Positions 3,071-34,123 of a stretch of 34,123 nucleotides of DNA are shown one piece after another. The notes under the pieces were generated by a model. It saw nothing but the letters and a program-made list of their open reading frames with translations, searched no databases and was not told where the DNA came from. The stretch's first letter is position 1. Every line of letters starts with the position of its first letter. The position numbers were made by a program, and so were the translations under genes. The DNA comes from Bacillota bacterium (lineage in GTDB: Bacteria; Bacillota; Sulfobacillia; Sulfobacillales; Sulfobacillaceae). Where the stretch lies: assembly GCA_021797675.1 (NCBI GenBank), contig JAJZZH010000220.1, positions 1 through 34,123 on the forward strand, in the 5' to 3' direction.

Positions 3071-4522
3071 TTATCCGGGAGCAAGACAGCGGCCAGCCAC
3101 CCGGCGGGCTCGGGCCCGGTTGCCGTAAAGTTGGATACAGGGCACGTCAAACAAGGTCTGGTCAACGGGGTCCGAGACCGCCACCACGGTATGCAGGCGA
3201 TGGCCCAAGCGCTCGCGAATCCCATCCACCAATCCCGGATGCTTCCACAGGTTATCCGCATAGAGAACAATGGGCCCCGGCAACGCAGCGATTCGGCCTA
3301 ACGATTCCGACCACGCTCCACGCTCGGCCACGTTAATCCACACGGGTTCCAAGGGAACGGCCTCCGCCTCCTCGACTGCGGTCGGGGGAGCCCCTGACGC
3401 CCACACCTCCACCCACCGCGCTCGAGGGGCAGGCGGCTTCAGACCCCGCACATGGCTCTCGGTCTTGGCGTCAAGGCGGGCAAACAGGGATTCCACGGCC
3501 TGGCCGTCCGGCCAATCCGGCCAGTGGTCGGGAGGGATCAAACGGGATTTTGCCGCTAAAATTCTCACGGCTGCCGCCCGCGCAACCGACCAAGCTCGGG
3601 GATCCCTCGCCCATTCCCACAGGGCATCAAAAATCGCCAAGGCTAGGGGAAAGGTGCCGCCGCAGTCCAGCACGTCCGCACCCGCCATGATCGCTCGCGG
3701 GGCGGCTTGGGCCGGGTCGGTGTGCCCGGCGATGCCCCGCATGTTGAGTGCATCGGTGACGATGAGGCCTTGAAACCCGAGCTCAGCGCGCAAAACCCGA
3801 TTTAACCAGTGCGCGGATAGGGTGGCAGGTTGATCGTCGTATTCCGGATACACGATGTGGGCGGTCATTACCGCCGCGGTACCGGCCCGAATGGCCCATC
3901 GGTACGGCAGCAAGTGTGCGGCCAAGCCTGCGCGCGCAATGTGCACCACGGGCCGCTCCACATGAGAGTCGGCCGCGGCCATGCCGTGACCGGGAAAATG
4001 CTTGACCGTAGCCAGGACGCCTTGGCTTTGCTGACCCTGTAGCCAGGCAGTAGCGTGCCTGGCAACCCGCTCTCCGGTACCGCCGAACGATCGCGTGCCG
4101 ATGACATAACTGCGAGCCTCGGTGCGCACGTCTGCGACGGGCGCGAAATTCCAGTTGATCCCCGACGCCAATAGAAACTGCCCCGTCAAGGCACCGGTGC
4201 GATAGGTCCAATCCGGGTCATCCAGTTCGCCCAATGACAGGGCGGAGGGGATCTCCCACCAACGGCGAAAACGTTGAACGGTGCCCCCTTCTTCGGTCAC
4301 CGCGAGCCACGGTGGTGCCCAGCCATGGTCAGCATAGAGGGCCCACAGCTCTTCGGCTAGAGACCGTAAGGATTCCGGCGACGCGATATCCTGAGCATGA
4401 AACACATACCCGCCCAACGGGCGCTGGCGAATGGTGTTCGCTACCGTTCGTATCCCGCCCTCGGGCCAGTCGGCCACCACCAGCTGGCCGATGGTGTAAA
4501 GCCGCTGGGCGTCACTTCCCAT
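3071..4522 (-). CDS. nagZ: GH3 beta-N-acetylglucosaminidase (NagZ-like)
   Basis: A 483-residue family 3 glycoside hydrolase. In NagZ-type enzymes this TIM barrel releases terminal GlcNAc from muropeptide fragments by a retaining mechanism. Visible signature residues are EEGG near 77-80 (usually DQEGG), NFAPVADV near 125-132, KHFPGHG at 174-180, the acid/base Asp-His dyad in ADSH at 184-187, and the nucleophile Asp in IVTDALNM at 257. The region after about 360 forms a short second domain. No signal peptide is seen, so it probably acts in the cytosol. An AGGAGGCGAGGAAG tract precedes the ATG at 4522. It follows mupG by 39 bases, which ties it to cell-wall sugar recycling. This is the intact GH3 of the operon, in contrast to the degenerate copy fused to MurQ. 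Confidence 0.88.
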   Translation of the reverse strand: MGSDAQRLYTIGQLVVADWPEGGIRTVANTIRQRPLGGYVFHAQDIASPESLRSLAEELWALYADHGWAPPWLAVTEEGGTVQRFRRWWEIPSALSLGELDDPDWTYRTGALTGQFLLASGINWNFAPVADVRTEARSYVIGTRSFGGTGERVARHATAWLQGQQSQGVLATVKHFPGHGMAAADSHVERPVVHIARAGLAAHLLPYRWAIRAGTAAVMTAHIVYPEYDDQPATLSAHWLNRVLRAELGFQGLIVTDALNMRGIAGHTDPAQAAPRAIMAGADVLDCGGTFPLALAIFDALWEWARDPRAWSVARAAAVRILAAKSRLIPPDHWPDWPDGQAVESLFARLDAKTESHVRGLKPPAPRARWVEVWASGAPPTAVEEAEAVPLEPVWINVAERGAWSESLGRIAALPGPIVLYADNLWKHPGLVDGIRERLGHRLHTVVAVSDPVDQTLFDVPCIQLYGNRARARRVAGRCLAPG

Positions 4523-5737: not shown

Positions 5738-6943
5738 CTAGTCGACCGTTTCCGGCTGTTCCTTCCTAATCATCCGGGGCGACGCCAGCGGCTGCCAATC
5801 TTCCTCGCCCATGCCATAGACCAGCTGTCCCAATCCAATCGCCGCCGAGCCAATCAATCCGATGTCGTCGCCAAACGAAGACGGTACCACCCGAACGGGG
5901 GGATAGGGCCAGTGCGCCGTCCTCGCAGCAAACTTGTCCATGACGTGATCGCGCACCATGGGCCAGACTTTGTCCACCCACCCGCCCAGCACGATCACGT
6001 CGGGGTCATACGTGTTTTCCAAATTGGTCAGGGCGATGGCCAACAGATGGGCGGTTTGCTCTTGCACGCGCGCAGGGGCCGCCGCCAGCATCTCGTCAAT
6101 TGGCGTCGACCACTCCGATCCGCATTGCCGGCGCAAGGCTTCCTCGCTGAGATAGCGTTCCAGGCAACCGCGATTTTCGCACCAACACGGTTCGCCGTCG
6201 GGTACCACCGTGGTATGGCCGATTTCCCCGGCGATACCGCGAGCGCCCCGATAGACGCGGCCGTCCGCCCAGATCCCGGCGGCGATGCCCTGGCCTACGT
6301 ACAAAAACGCCAGCCACCACGCGTCACGGTGGGATCCCATCAAGTGTTCGGCCAGCGCCATGCCCCGGACATTGTTATCCATCACCACGGGAAGCCCGAC
6401 CGCTTCGGCCAACCACGCGCCGAACGGAACATTGGCCCATCCGTAATGGGGCGAGACCCGAATGGTCGCACGGGCATAGTCGACAATCCCTGAGGCCCCG
6501 ATGCCCACGCCAAGCACGTGGGGAGGACGAACCCGGCGTACGATCTCGGCCAGCAGTTGCTTCACCTGCCCCACGCTCCGCCGTGGGTCAGGCCGTTCCT
6601 CCAAGGCGTCTTGCTCGGTAACCACCAGGGTTCCGTCCAGTTCGGCCAAGCCCACCGTGACCAGCCTGCGCTGCAGATGGACCGCAGCCATCAAATGGGT
6701 GCCCGACGCCACCTTGAGACCAATCGAAGGCCGCCCTACCGAGCGCGGGCCGCTGCCAGGACCTTCTTCGACAATCCAGTGATCCTTGAGCAAAACCCCG
6801 GTGATATTCGTGATGGAGGCCGGGGTGAGTCCGGTGAGTTCGGCCAGCGTTTGACGGGCGATTCCCGGTCGTAACATGATATGGCGCAAGACCAACTGCC
6901 GATTGGTCCGGCGGGCCGACATCATGTTCTGCCCCCGTTTCAT
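5738..6943 (-). CDS. ROK-family transcriptional regulator
   Basis: About 401 residues from the ATG at 6943. An N-terminal winged helix-turn-helix (TNRQLVLRHI, LAELTGLTPASITNIT) is followed by a ROK sugar-sensing domain with GIGASGIVD, VVMDNNVRGMALAE, GIAGEIGH and the zinc knuckle CWCENRGCLE. The N-terminal phosphate-binding DxGGT loop of ROK kinases is not present (the position reads AAVHLQRR), so it should be a regulator and not a kinase. The start at 6943 is preferred because its ATG overlaps the TGA of the upstream murQ fusion (ATGA), which suggests translational coupling; starts at 6922 or 6919 are possible. It most likely represses the operon until a cell-wall amino sugar binds. Confidence 0.85.
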   Translation of the reverse strand: MKRGQNMMSARRTNRQLVLRHIMLRPGIARQTLAELTGLTPASITNITGVLLKDHWIVEEGPGSGPRSVGRPSIGLKVASGTHLMAAVHLQRRLVTVGLAELDGTLVVTEQDALEERPDPRRSVGQVKQLLAEIVRRVRPPHVLGVGIGASGIVDYARATIRVSPHYGWANVPFGAWLAEAVGLPVVMDNNVRGMALAEHLMGSHRDAWWLAFLYVGQGIAAGIWADGRVYRGARGIAGEIGHTTVVPDGEPCWCENRGCLERYLSEEALRRQCGSEWSTPIDEMLAAAPARVQEQTAHLLAIALTNLENTYDPDVIVLGGWVDKVWPMVRDHVMDKFAARTAHWPYPPVRVVPSSFGDDIGLIGSAAIGLGQLVYGMGEEDWQPLASPRMIRKEQPETVD

Positions 6944-8730
6944 GGGCGGTGTTGCCCAGCGGCGATGGCGTCGATAATCTTCTGCACAGAGCCGAACTCG
7001 TGCAGCAGATCGCGCGCGGCATGGACCGGACACCCTACCCGTGCCGCCACGATGGCGGTTTTCAACTCTCCCCCCGCCTGAGCCAGGTAGTCCCTAGCCA
7101 CCTGGCGGGGGAGGCCGGTCGCCATCATGAACACGCGGACAGCCCGTTCACGCAGTTTCAGATTGGTGGCCATAAAATCCACCATCAGATTGTCATAGGT
7201 TCTGCCCAATCCAACCATCGCCAGGGTCGAAATGGTGTTGAGGATCACCTTCTCCGCGGTTCCGGCCTTCAGCCGTGTCGATCCCACCAGCACCTCCGGT
7301 CCGGAAGGAATCTCTATCACCTGCTCCACCATCGCTGCCAGCTGGCTCCCGCGATTGTTGACGATGCCCACCACCACGGCGCCCCGCTCGCCGGCCCGTC
7401 GCGCCGCCCCCAGCACGTAGGGGGTGTTCCCGTGCGCAGTGATTGCCAACAACACGTCGCCCTGCCCCACCGCGTACCGTTCCACGTCCTCGGCCCCTTG
7501 CCCCTCGTCGTCCTCGGCGCCTTCCTGCGCCCGGTGCACCGCATCCGGACCTCCTGCGAGGATCGCCTGGGCCATTTCCGGGGCAACCCCAAATGTCGGC
7601 GGCTGTTCCGCCGCATCCATCGTGCCCGCTCGTCCCGCCGATCCTGCGCCCAGGTAAAATAACCGGCCGCCACGGGCCCAGCAATCGCGCACCATGTCCA
7701 CCACCTCGGCCAGCTTGGGCACCACGGATTGCAGAGCGGCCAATGCCCGCGTTTCTTCGGCCAATATGGCCGAGGCGGCGCGAGCAACGTCCTGGTTCTC
7801 CAGCCAGCGCAGCGCGAAATGCGGATGCGGATGCTCGGTGGAAAAATGCGCGGCATGCGGGGCTGGCGAATCCGTGGAGGCCACTTCCACCGGCAGGCGG
7901 CCCTTCCAGGGCTCTGCGCCAATCAGCTTTTGAGCCAGCGCCGAAAACGTCTCCTTGCGGTCGGAATAGACGGCCACCTTGACGGCTGCCGGGAGCACGC
8001 CCGCCAGAAAGCCGAGTCGTCGGCAGGCCACCGCGACAACCGTATCCCCTGTCCTCGGCGCCGGAGGACAGGCATCGACCCACACTTCAGCGGTGGCCGC
8101 TTCGCGGTTTTCTTCTCCGACCACAGCGAACGTCGATCGAAGTCCTGCCGCCGCTCCGCATTGACCGGGATCATAAATATACAGCACCGCATCGGGCGCC
8201 AGCGGCAGTTGCCCGGGGTCGTCCACCAGGGTGATCGCATCCGCTTCGATGGTGGCCAATAGCGTTTCTAACGTCTTCCCTGCCGAAGGCAAGGGCGGAC
8301 GCGCCGGCAACGGCTCAAAAAGCTCTGTCCGGGGCACAAATCCACGCTTCTCGTCAATCCACCAGCCGTCGGCAGCGGCGGCGAATTGAGCGACCCTGAG
8401 ACCAACTCGGCGAAAGCCGATTACCGCGGCCGAAGCCACGGCCGCGCCCAACCAAGGCACCGGGGCATCCGACAGCATCCCCGCCGGATCCCCCCAAATT
8501 CCTGCGTAGCCGGCGTCCCGCACCCGCATCCCGCTGACCTCGGCGAACCGCCGCACCAAGTCGGGGTTGCCGGCGGCGGCTAGCCCCGTGGCGGTCGGCC
8601 AGCCGGGAAAGGGCCCGTTTTTTTCCTTTAGCGCGGTTTCAGCGATGAATAAGCCTGGTTCCGGTGCGACATCCGACCACTTCGTAGCCACGCCGCGAAC
8701 TACGTCGCCGCTCAAGGGTCGCCAGATCAT
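6940..8730 (-). CDS. murQ: Degenerate GH3 domain fused to MurQ (N-acetylmuramic acid 6-phosphate etherase)
   Basis: 596 residues from the ATG at 8730, which has GGAG 8 bases upstream; a longer start at 8790 has weaker support. Residues about 296-596 form MurQ, a SIS-domain etherase that cleaves the D-lactyl ether of MurNAc 6-phosphate to GlcNAc 6-phosphate. Landmarks are LGAGSAGRAG at 360-369, the catalytic Glu in DAAEQPPTFG at 375, and QEGAEDDEG with the second Glu. Residues 1-290 are an extra part that reads like a shrunken family 3 glycoside hydrolase: FPGWPTATGLAAAGNPDL near 41, AITLVDDPGQLPL near 165, and SALAQKLIGAEPWKGRLPV near 263, the last two typical of the GH3 C-terminal lobe. The KHFPGHG and nucleophile motifs are missing, so this part is probably non-catalytic, perhaps for binding or scaffolding. 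It is the first gene of the operon. Confidence 0.85.
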   Translation of the reverse strand: MIWRPLSGDVVRGVATKWSDVAPEPGLFIAETALKEKNGPFPGWPTATGLAAAGNPDLVRRFAEVSGMRVRDAGYAGIWGDPAGMLSDAPVPWLGAAVASAAVIGFRRVGLRVAQFAAAADGWWIDEKRGFVPRTELFEPLPARPPLPSAGKTLETLLATIEADAITLVDDPGQLPLAPDAVLYIYDPGQCGAAAGLRSTFAVVGEENREAATAEVWVDACPPAPRTGDTVVAVACRRLGFLAGVLPAAVKVAVYSDRKETFSALAQKLIGAEPWKGRLPVEVASTDSPAPHAAHFSTEHPHPHFALRWLENQDVARAASAILAEETRALAALQSVVPKLAEVVDMVRDCWARGGRLFYLGAGSAGRAGTMDAAEQPPTFGVAPEMAQAILAGGPDAVHRAQEGAEDDEGQGAEDVERYAVGQGDVLLAITAHGNTPYVLGAARRAGERGAVVVGIVNNRGSQLAAMVEQVIEIPSGPEVLVGSTRLKAGTAEKVILNTISTLAMVGLGRTYDNLMVDFMATNLKLRERAVRVFMMATGLPRQVARDYLAQAGGELKTAIVAARVGCPVHAARDLLHEFGSVQKIIDAIAAGQHRP

Positions 8731-8837
8731 GGTGAAGACTCCACGCCGAAGCTTCCCGCGATCGCAGCCCGACTGTCGCTCCGCCGGCATCCGGCATCAA
8801 AGTCCTGAGGCACTGGTCTGCCCTCCTCCGTCATCGC

Positions 8838-25767: not shown

Positions 25768-26145
25768 GAGTTCTTCTCCCTCCTTTGGGATCGTGAATAT
25801 CCATGAGGTCACCAAAGTACTTCTTCGGTATGTATCTCCGTTTTCCTTCAACTAGCAGAAAGGATTTTTTCTTTTTTGTGAAGCCGTTGGTGTTCCGTCA
25901 GGGACCGCGCTCTGCCTTCGGTGGCGGGCAAAATTGCAGCCCCTAGGACGCAAACCATCCTGCCAGGCTGATTTTTCGTCCCTGGTGAAGTTGGAGCTTT
26001 TTTCCGAATGATGCCGTATGCTTAGCGGGATGCTGAGCGGTTCGGCTGAAGGGGGGCGTCGCGCTTGCGGATTCTAAGCCATAACGTTCATGACGGAGGT
26101 CGGACTGGATCAGACATTCCGGCTTGATCGCGTGGCCGATGTCAT
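25768..26145. other. Gene-free stretch before the IscB element
   Basis: Upstream region of the DUF4855 gene, with an A/T-rich run near 25862-25880. A 92-codon minus-strand ORF (25943-26221) runs into the IscB left end but has no recognised family. It may contain the DUF4855 promoter; none is clear. Confidence 0.4.
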
Positions 26146-26453
26146 AGACCCCACGGCTAAAGCCGGGGGCTTGTCGGGATGCATTTCCGAGAGTCTCTAA
26201 CTTTCGCCGGAAAGCCCGCAAGGGCGCTATGACCAGCCTTGGCCGCCGGGATCTCGGGAGCGAGCGGCTCCGTTCCTTTGGTGCAGACCTTGGGATGCTT
26301 CTCCAGTCTCAAGCGCTCTGGTCCTCCGTTAAAAGCGAGCTGGGGTGTTGCGAGCGGTGCGGAGGGATGATGCAACCCGAGGGAACCTTGGCGAGGAGAG
26401 CGATTCCCAGGAATCCGTTACCAGCCCCTTACGGGGCAGAAAGCAGGACCGTC
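26146..26453 (+). ncRNA. IscB omega RNA scaffold
   Basis: IscB uses an RNA of about 200-300 bases encoded just upstream of its gene, with the guide at its 5' end read from the flank outside the element. The stretch from the left end to the iscB start contains several paired segments, and its 261 bases to 26406 recur at 33863-34123 with five substitutions. It has an ATG-initiated ORF on the plus strand (from 26229) that fuses in frame to iscB, but the conserved ends and lack of a ribosome site argue that the stretch is RNA. The expected guide is about 26133-26148 (TGGCCGATGTCATAGA). Guide length and 3' boundary are inferred from characterised IscB systems. Confidence 0.75.
26149..26172 (+). 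repeat. Left-end hairpin of the IscB element
   Basis: Imperfect palindrome around GGCT-AA-AGCC with flanking CCCC/GGGG. The identical 24-mer lies at the right end (27762-27785) and at 33866-33889. Confidence 0.8.
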
Positions 26454-27773
26454 ATGGTTTTTGTCTTAGATAAGCATCAGAAACCGTTGATGCCGTGTAC
26501 CGAGAAACGCGCGCGGTTGCTCCTCGAACGCGGTCGCGCGGTCATTCACACCCAGGCTCCGTTTACGATTCGCCTGAACGATCGCGCGACGCAGGACTCG
26601 GCCTTCCAGCCCTTGCGGATCAAGTTCGACCCTGGCAGCAAGACAACCGGGGTGGCGATCATCCTGGAGGGGGCCAAAGGCTCGAAGGCCATTTTTTTCG
26701 GGGAAATCGTCCATAAAGCGGGCATCAAGGCTCGCTTGGATGCCCGGCGAGCTTTGCGCCAAAGTCGTCGGCATCGGAAGACCCGGTATCGGAAGCCTCG
26801 GTTCCAAAACCGCAAGCGGAAAGCGGGATGGTTGCCGCCCTCATTGGAAGCCCGGGTGGATCAGACCCTCCACGCGTTGGCCCAGATCCAAAAACGCACC
26901 CCGATTACGCACCTGAGTATGGAACACGTCAAGTTCGACACCCAAAAGCTGGAGAAGCCTGAAATCTCGGGGGTGGAGTACCAGCAAGGCACACTCCTGG
27001 GCTATGAAATCCGGGAATACCTGCTGGAAAAGTGGGGGCGCCGTTGCGCCTATTGCGACAAGACCGATGTGCCCCTACAAGTCGAGCACATCGTGCCCAA
27101 GACCTGGGGTGGAAGCAACCGGGTCAGCAACCTCACCCTGGCGTGCGAACCGTGCAACCTCCGAAAGAACAAGCAAACGGCGGCAGAGTTCGGCTATCCG
27201 GACATCCAAGCGCAAGCCCGAAAGCCCCTGAAGGATGCCGCCATGATGAATGCCACCCGGTGGCGGTTGTATGTATCGTTGAAGGCCACCGGACTACCCG
27301 TCGAGGGGGGATCGGGCGGACGTACCAAATGGCAACGCATTGAGCGCGGTTTTCCCAAGGAGCACTACTTCGACGCGCTCTGCGTCGGGGAAAGCACGCC
27401 GGAGCACTTCATTCATCTCTCGGCTTATGTGCAGATCTGGACCGCGAAGGGACGGGGCAACCGGCAAATGTGCGGCACGAACCAGTACGGATTTCCAATC
27501 CGGCATCGGTCCCGCCAAAAGGTCCACTTCGGCTTTCAGACGGGCGATAGGGTTAAGGCGGTGGTCCCCCGGGGCAAGTACACCGGAACCCATACGGGGC
27601 GTGTCTTGGTGCGAGCATCCGGCTCGTTTGACCTTTCCGCCGATGGACAGCGGATTGCTCAGGGCATCTCGTACAAACATTGTCGCATTCTGCAACGCAA
27701 CGGAGGATGGCACCATGCACAAAAAACCCATTTCCGCCTAACGGCGGAAACCCGCTTTCCTCCCCACGGCTAA
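26454..27773 (+). CDS. iscB: IscB, RNA-guided HNH/RuvC nuclease
   Basis: 439 residues from the ATG at 26454. The earlier ATG at 26229 would translate the omega RNA and is rejected. IscB is the ancestor-like relative of Cas9. Visible parts in order: the PLMP motif (11-14); RuvC-I FDPGSKTTG with catalytic Asp59; an Arg-rich bridge helix about 93-122; RuvC-II SMEHVKFD with Glu157; an HNH domain with zinc cysteines CAYC (198-201) and CEPC (231-234) and EHI with His212; RuvC-III HYFDAL with His304/Asp307; and a C-terminal domain that probably reads the TAM (NQYGFP, VKAVVPRGKYTG). All nuclease residues I can place are intact, so both strands could be cut. The TAA is inside the right-end hairpin. 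No close ribosome site is evident. No transposase gene accompanies it. Confidence 0.93.
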   Translation: MVFVLDKHQKPLMPCTEKRARLLLERGRAVIHTQAPFTIRLNDRATQDSAFQPLRIKFDPGSKTTGVAIILEGAKGSKAIFFGEIVHKAGIKARLDARRALRQSRRHRKTRYRKPRFQNRKRKAGWLPPSLEARVDQTLHALAQIQKRTPITHLSMEHVKFDTQKLEKPEISGVEYQQGTLLGYEIREYLLEKWGRRCAYCDKTDVPLQVEHIVPKTWGGSNRVSNLTLACEPCNLRKNKQTAAEFGYPDIQAQARKPLKDAAMMNATRWRLYVSLKATGLPVEGGSGGRTKWQRIERGFPKEHYFDALCVGESTPEHFIHLSAYVQIWTAKGRGNRQMCGTNQYGFPIRHRSRQKVHFGFQTGDRVKAVVPRGKYTGTHTGRVLVRASGSFDLSADGQRIAQGISYKHCRILQRNGGWHHAQKTHFRLTAETRFPPHG

Positions 27774-32894: not shown

Positions 32895-33917
32895 ATGGAC
32901 CTCGTAGAGATTGAAGGGCTCCGCATCCGCTTCGACGCCGACGGCCAGGTGGTGTACGCCGTCAATGGCATCGACCTGACCGTCGCCGAAGGACAGGTCG
33001 TCGGCGTCGTGGGCGAAAGCGGCAGCGGAAAATCCGTCACGGTCACCAGCATTCCGCGGCTGTTGCCGAAAACCGCGCGCTGCGAAGGACGGGTCCGATT
33101 TGATGGCATCGACGTGCTCAACGCGTCGGCGGCGCAAATGCGCGCCATCCGCGGGCGATCCGTGGGGATGATTTTTCAAAATCCGCTCGCGTATTTGAAT
33201 CCAACGCGGACCATCGGGAGCCAGTTGATGGAGCCGCTCTTGTTTCACCATCTGGCCGGCTATCAGGAGGCCCGACGCAGAGGCCTCGAAATGCTGGAGC
33301 GGGTCGGTATTCAAAACCCTGCCGCCCGGTTCGACAACTATCCTTTTGAATTCAGCGGTGGCATGTTGCAACGGGTGCTCATCGCCACCGCGCTGATTGC
33401 GGCACCCAAGCTGGTGATTGCCGACGAACCCACGACGTCGCTGGATGTTACCGTGCAGGCGCAGATTCTGCGTTTGTTGAAGACGATGCAGCGCGATCTC
33501 AAGATGTCGATGATTTTTGTGACGCACGATCTCGCCGTGGCAGCCCAGGTGTCCGATACCATCTATGTCATGTATGGAGGCACGGTGGTGGAGCAGTTGA
33601 ACGCCGCGGATTTGATTCGTGCCCACCGGCACCCGTATCTAGCCGGCCTGCTCGACTCCTTGCCTCGGCTGGACCGGCCTGTAGGACGACTTCCCTTCAT
33701 CCCCGGATTACCGGTCGACACCCGCCAGCCTCTCGCCGGGTGCCCTTTTTTTGACCGCTGCGGGGTGCATACCGATGACTGCCACACGCTGCCCGCCCTG
33801 ACCACCGTGGGACCCAGTCATCGCGTGGCCTGCTGGCGGGTTGCCGGCGAACTGGTCGTCACAGACCCCACGGCTAAAGCCGGGGGCTTGTCGGGATGCA
33901 TTCCCGAGAGTCTCTAG
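32895..33917 (+). CDS. oppD: ABC importer ATPase (OppD-like) with a transposon-derived tail
   Basis: 340 residues as it stands. AAGGAGGTGA precedes the ATG at 32895. Walker A GESGSGKS (40-47), signature FSGGMLQRV, Walker B LVIADEPTTSLD and switch VTHDLAV are all present. The C-terminal cysteine cluster (CPFFDRC, DDC and VACW), a frequent oligopeptide/dipeptide-ATPase feature, is complete. After GELVVTD the coding runs into the second IscB left end at 33866; the last 16 residues (PTAKAGGLSGCIPESL) are translated from the element. The native end was probably only a few residues away, so the ATPase domain should be intact. The partner OppF-type gene, if any, is beyond the window, past the element. 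Confidence 0.88.
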   Translation: MDLVEIEGLRIRFDADGQVVYAVNGIDLTVAEGQVVGVVGESGSGKSVTVTSIPRLLPKTARCEGRVRFDGIDVLNASAAQMRAIRGRSVGMIFQNPLAYLNPTRTIGSQLMEPLLFHHLAGYQEARRRGLEMLERVGIQNPAARFDNYPFEFSGGMLQRVLIATALIAAPKLVIADEPTTSLDVTVQAQILRLLKTMQRDLKMSMIFVTHDLAVAAQVSDTIYVMYGGTVVEQLNAADLIRAHRHPYLAGLLDSLPRLDRPVGRLPFIPGLPVDTRQPLAGCPFFDRCGVHTDDCHTLPALTTVGPSHRVACWRVAGELVVTDPTAKAGGLSGCIPESL

Positions 33918-34123
33918 CTTTCGCCGGAAAGCCCGCAAGGGCGCTATGACCAGCCTTAGCCGCCGGGATCTCGGGAGCGAGCGGCTCCGTTCCTTCGGTG
34001 CAGACCTTGGGATGCTTCTCCAGTCTCAAGCGCTCTGGTCCTCCGTTAAAAGCCAGCTGGGGTGTTGCGAGCGGTGCGGAGGGATGATGCAACCCGAGGG
34101 AACCTTGGCGAGGAGAGCGATTC
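33863..34123 (+). ncRNA. Second IscB omega RNA (left part), cut by window end
   Basis: 261 bases match 26146-26406 with five substitutions (about 98 percent). The guide would be about 33850-33865 (AACTGGTCGTCACAGA), from the end of oppD. An iscB gene should follow outside the window. Confidence 0.75.
33866..34123 (+). mobile_element. Left part of a second IscB element in oppD
   Basis: Starts with the same 24-base end hairpin (33866-33889) as the first element. It lies at the 3' end of the importer ATPase gene. Only the left end and omega RNA are visible. Confidence 0.75.

Follow-up and report, generated by a model that had tools for sequence, protein, structure and literature searches.

We found in the window (the whole 34,123-nucleotide stretch of DNA analysed) a gene for a 596-residue protein in which a degenerate GH3-derived domain is fused to a MurQ-type domain (6940-8730, minus strand); it is read as one open frame with MurQ family matches. 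Ordinary MurQ is the MurNAc-6-phosphate etherase, which removes lactate from recycled wall sugar. We predict, with a probability of roughly 0.55, that the fusion serves a peptidoglycan-sugar salvage operon as a second, specialised etherase, in which the dead GH3 domain is a non-catalytic part. Since it is conserved in one family and accompanied there by altered wall-sugar enzymes of its own, the protein probably acts on a sugar somewhat unlike the ordinary MurQ substrate. The stop codon lies at 6940-6942 and the likely start is the ATG at 8730, with GGAG upstream, an alternative in-frame ATG being present at 8790. The fusion is the first gene of a tight minus-strand run, followed by genes for an HTH-ROK protein, MupG, a GH3 enzyme and a RhaM-type mutarotase. 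MurQ, NagZ, MupG and fusions of MurQ to serine hydrolases are already known; the sequence-only reading knew of no description of a GH3-MurQ fusion, and we likewise found no account of a GH3 remnant joined to a MurQ with a remade pocket in the open-licence PMC literature.

The GH3-derived N-terminal domain

Neither the N-terminal domain of the window's protein (residues 1-290; 7861-8730, minus strand) nor the set of nine N-domains matched any significant Pfam family, GH3 included, at permissive E-values, so that the assignment to GH3 required profiles. When a profile made from nine N-domain sequences was run against 177,635 PDB sequences, the top four matches were GH3 enzymes, individually weak (E 0.011-0.16), the best being a GH3 N-acetylglucosaminidase (6k5j) aligned in three collinear blocks. 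These blocks place profile positions 60-102, 131-239 and 270-333 on GH3 positions 89-135, 315-427 and 450-512. Run against GH3 proteins, the profile scores 36.6 bits, whereas the highest score among 992 shuffled or reversed controls is 7.1. In the reverse test a GH3 profile scores the N-domains at 19.3 bits at most, the best shuffle giving 4.9, and two of the nine, taken singly, stay at or below that shuffle. In the window's protein the recognisable pieces, all on the minus strand, are a first-lobe remnant comprising a barrel strand/helix block (residues 35-76; 8503-8628; hhalign to GH3 90-135, 26% identity), the start of the second lobe with the ITLVDDPGQLPL block found by hmmsearch (residues 163-190; 8161-8244) and the end of that lobe (residues 217-290; 7861-8082; hhalign E=5e-5, 25% identity). 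Descent of the domain from a two-lobed GH3 of the NagZ type is thereby established at the level of sequence comparison, and the earlier recognition of GH3 blocks from both lobes is borne out by the profile, PDB and shuffle-control tests.

The three-block alignment implies that the barrel segment carrying KHFPGHG..DSH and the nucleophile Asp is absent. The KH[FI]PGHG..DSH loop and the nucleophile segment are thus deleted, as the sequence-only reading had held in stating that the catalytic motifs were lost, and catalysis by this domain is not expected. By alignment it also seems too short for a complete (beta/alpha)8 barrel. The two-lobed NagZ of Bacillus subtilis (YbbD) shares the three collinear blocks with the domain; unlike that enzyme, the domain has a shortened second lobe and no barrel segment to carry KHFPGHG and the nucleophile. 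Two AlphaFold2 predictions from only seven sequences were of low confidence; the model of the N-domain alone, built with no GH3 sequence in the input, has a pLDDT of 48 overall and about 60-80 over residues 11-120. GH3-type enzymes nevertheless make up the top Foldseek rows for this model and every one of the 50 VIA-align rows, with B. subtilis NagZ (4gyk; Z 8.8, rmsd 5.0 over 156 residues) among the best structural matches. The proposed structural comparison with NagZ returned GH3-type matches but from a weak model, for which reason the fold matches serve only as support for GH3 descent.

A scan of 398 genomes of the phylum with the N-domain profile gave three matches outside the own genome, all of them catalytically complete NagZ-type proteins. 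Derivation from the GH3 encoded in the same operon is unsupported, as most members of that enzyme's clade score no better than chance, whereas full-length NagZ types score above it.

The domain evolves under purifying selection, with dN/dS of 0.23-0.31 against 0.13-0.17 for the MurQ half in the three pairs estimable for both halves, and displays invariant motifs of its own (WP, GxLS..PW and IxLxDDPxxLP). It is a clear-cut example of a glycosidase domain retained after the loss of catalysis. W93 and W123 are invariant, as is W44 in a seven-row alignment, all three within or close to what was the active-site face. Together with the co-occurrence of the fusion and a divergent GH3 (see below), these residues could point to a lectin-like module that binds sugar or docks to the intact GH3 and hands the product of that enzyme to MurQ, an idea that goes back to the sequence-only reading. 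Such a module is quite unlikely, as the sugar-binding residues of GH3 are replaced or deleted in the domain and the invariant tryptophans may be structural.

The MurQ half and its phosphate pocket

The C-terminal half (residues 296-587; 6970-7845, minus strand) is a MurQ-type SIS domain, which matches NCBIfam NF003915 with E=1e-92 and 310 bits (cut-off 168) and scores 262.6 bits, below the cut-off of 302, against the equivalog TIGR00274. In the PDB its sequence matches MurQ 4lzj (E=4e-58), and its structure matches 4s12 and 4lzj with Z about 20. The catalytic Glu pair of the MurQ etherases is retained and invariant in the fusions. Its second member, E406 (7513-7515, minus strand), is presumably E114 of E. 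coli MurQ. The first, E375 (7606-7608, minus strand), we take to be E83 of that enzyme (Hadi 2008).

The phosphate pocket is changed. MurQ holds the phosphate with three Ser (PMC12680351), and from this statement and the general SIS motif we mapped S79 and S147 of the Haemophilus influenzae enzyme to the pocket. In the fusion, A365 (7636-7638, minus strand) stands in place of S79, turning GAGTSGR into GAGSAGR, and H433 (7432-7434, minus strand) in place of S147, turning ASGRTP into AHG[ND]TP, so that the pocket Ser motifs of SIS domains (GxG[TS]S and ASG) are both broken. Both replacements are found in 10/10 fusions and 0/17 unfused MurQ of the family, and no other MurQ that was compared from the phylum sample carries the pair. 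Seven columns in all are fixed differently between the fused MurQ and the 17 unfused ones, three of which fall in the phosphate-pocket motifs (T78S, S79A and S147H in H. influenzae numbering). With the pocket Ser replaced, substrate recognition of the fused MurQ has probably shifted, though phosphate might still be held by the retained T/S at 145, by Ser 78 and by the new His. The sequence-only reading called this half MurQ but missed the altered pocket, in view of which the label 'MurQ' overstates what is known of the fused half.

The retained fold and catalytic Glu also suit a plain MurNAc-6-phosphate etherase to which the decayed remains of a NagZ are attached as a passenger, the protein having once been a bifunctional NagZ-MurQ whose glycosidase half became redundant. 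NagZ and MurQ genes adjoin in other Bacillota, and the pseudo-domain best matches full-length NagZ types and not the co-encoded GH3. We consider this unlikely, because the N-domain is constrained, with its own invariant motifs, and two phosphate-pocket Ser are gone in all fusions.

GKRP is a relative of MurQ with a sensing function that has two tandem SIS domains and has lost the catalytic Glu pair. GKRP chains were matched in the PDB search, and these matches, the altered phosphate pocket and the ROK gene adjacent in loci extending past the fusion are features that a phosphosugar-sensing regulator of this kind would share, controlling, for example, the ROK repressor or the intact GH3 instead of catalysing. 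The fusion, however, has a single SIS domain and keeps both catalytic Glu invariant, and HTH-ROK repressors of nearby sugar genes commonly act without a partner, which makes a GKRP-like role improbable. GKRP and NagS, the latter described as a dehydratase limited to Streptomycetaceae, are likewise MurQ-related SIS proteins with new roles (PMC12680351). MurQ of E. coli, H. influenzae and Bacillus shares with the fusion the SIS fold, the Glu pair and the siting beside peptidoglycan-sugar genes; unlike these, the fusion has the GH3 remnant, Ala and His for the pocket Ser and an altered N-terminal motif (TEQPHP....LRWL). We know of no GH3 part in either GKRP or NagS.

Distribution and companion genes

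Across the 34 genomes of the family, we found 10 copies of the fusion in nine genomes belonging to three genera. Besides a canonical MurQ (C192), the own genome encodes another copy of the fusion (C205), whose MurQ part is 58% identical; eight of the nine fusion genomes carry a canonical MurQ elsewhere, and most encode an ordinary set of MurQ, NagZ and NamZ. The fusion was found outside the family neither in the 398-genome phylum sample nor in a linker-motif scan of genome_contigs, which gave only six loci, all matching genomes already in the set and recorded as metagenome-assembled 'Bacillota bacterium' genomes; plasmid records yielded MurQ halves only. Misassembly with confinement to one genome, which the sequence-only reading had named as a way in which the fusion might prove unreal, is ruled out by the second copy in the own genome and the 10 copies in nine genomes. 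The search in other Firmicutes that the same reading proposed extends the fusion to three genera of one family, but not to Firmicutes at large. All 10 fused MurQ domains group in a single, fully supported clade (100/100) on a long stem (1.23), which suggests a single origin of the GH3-remnant/MurQ fusion.

The gene next to the fusion (5738-6925, minus strand; start ATG 6925) encodes an HTH-ROK protein, and its counterpart adjoins the fusion in those relatives' loci that reach past it. Sugar kinases of the ROK type carry an ENDAN motif; here it reads DNN[AV]R, making the protein a probable repressor. It is followed by a MupG-like 6-phospho-N-acetylmuramidase (DUF871; PF19200 and PF05913; 4562-5686, minus strand), a GH3 (3071-4522, minus strand) and, as the last gene of the wall-sugar run, a RhaM-type (L-rhamnose mutarotase-like) mutarotase (PF05336; 2666-2977, minus strand). 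The intact GH3 that the sequence-only reading placed in the operon is indeed catalytically complete, with KHFPGHG..DSH and TDALNM present, but it is a divergent paralogue whose occurrence follows that of the fusion. Its group in the tree has eight members (100/100, stem 1.45), each encoded in a genome that bears the fusion. The enzyme keeps the catalytic loop, and all eight have TEEGG for DQEGG. In GH3 enzymes the Asp of DQEGG, at the -1 site, contacts O4/O6.

The divergent GH3 is present in 8/9 fusion genomes against 0/25 other family genomes (Fisher p 5e-7, kinship ignored) and MupG in 7/9 against 0/25 (Fisher p 7e-6, kinship ignored). Of the two fusion genomes that lack MupG, one is 63% complete and the other has the fusion on a 4-kb contig. 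In two of the three genera, other species are without the MupG/divergent-GH3 set. Further neighbours of the fusion loci include ABC importers, type I phosphodiesterases, GNAT and beta-lactamase-type proteins, and in one genome (G001) the divergent GH3 adjoins NagB, NagA and AnmK.

In relatives, a conserved gene of about 320-326 codons lies directly upstream of the fusion and touches or overlaps its start (L024:4886-5863, L023:4907-5863, L022:693-1658); it belongs to no Pfam or NCBIfam family and has one weak PDB match, a beta-galactosidase (5mt2). No gene of this type stands beside the window's copy. Genes like type I phosphodiesterase/nucleotide pyrophosphatase occur in clusters with the fusion, MupG and GH3 (L114:10954-12774, L117:5287-7110, L116:5782-7572), and one may speculate that such an enzyme opens a MurNAc 6-phosphodiester, the linkage of teichoic acid, to give MurNAc-6P without a kinase. 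The own genome also has a third MupG gene, which adjoins one for NamZ, an exo-muramidase (L118:9381-11731).

The proposed salvage route and related systems

For the specialised second etherase that we favour, we envisage that the linked ABC importers would bring in muropeptide-derived sugars, from which the GH3 and MupG would release a muramyl sugar; the fused MurQ domain would then remove the D-lactyl ether, yielding a GlcNAc-type sugar phosphate for NagA/NagB, with the operon presumably repressed by the ROK protein. Least certain are the suggestions that the pseudo-GH3 domain might shape MurQ dimer assembly or access to the active site, and that the sugar might differ from ordinary MurNAc-6-phosphate in how it is recognised at C6/O4. 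The sharpest tension is between the changed phosphate pocket and the presence of MupG and AnmK, from which ordinary 6-phosphate chemistry would be expected.

Etherase-based peptidoglycan salvage is described as a set of routes converging on MurNAc-6-phosphate and MurQ. The conserved MurQ-like clade, whose pocket is remade and which comes with a dead glycosidase domain and with a GH3 and a MupG of its own, points to an additional salvage route in this family. Etherase and GH3 are both changed at positions thought to read the C6/O4 side, and we tentatively entertain a stronger version, in which they would belong to a complete second pathway parallel to NamZ/NagZ/MurQ, dedicated to a muramyl sugar modified at C6 or O4, with the dead GH3 essential to the etherase.

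A related operon already described differs in composition: the mupG-murQ-murP-murR operon of Staphylococcus aureus (PMC6262408) likewise encodes MupG and MurQ with a regulator, whereas the loci here have a GH3, ABC importers and HTH-ROK instead of MurR, and no PTS gene was noticed in the loci read. In other Bacillota, MurQ is fused to another partner from wall salvage, a PBP4B/beta-lactamase-like serine hydrolase (L152:3347-5497, L153:3297-5501 and L154:5813-7879, all minus strand); these fusions differ in that the partner is C-terminal and unrelated and the MurQ pocket canonical, and they adjoin genes for NagZ, AnmK-like and BadF-type kinase-like proteins.

Elsewhere in the window, an IscB-type RRXRR/HNH nuclease gene (26229-27773) overlaps a match to the HEARO (omega) RNA (26141-26406). 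A second HEARO match (33858-34123) reaches the window end, so a second copy probably follows beyond it.
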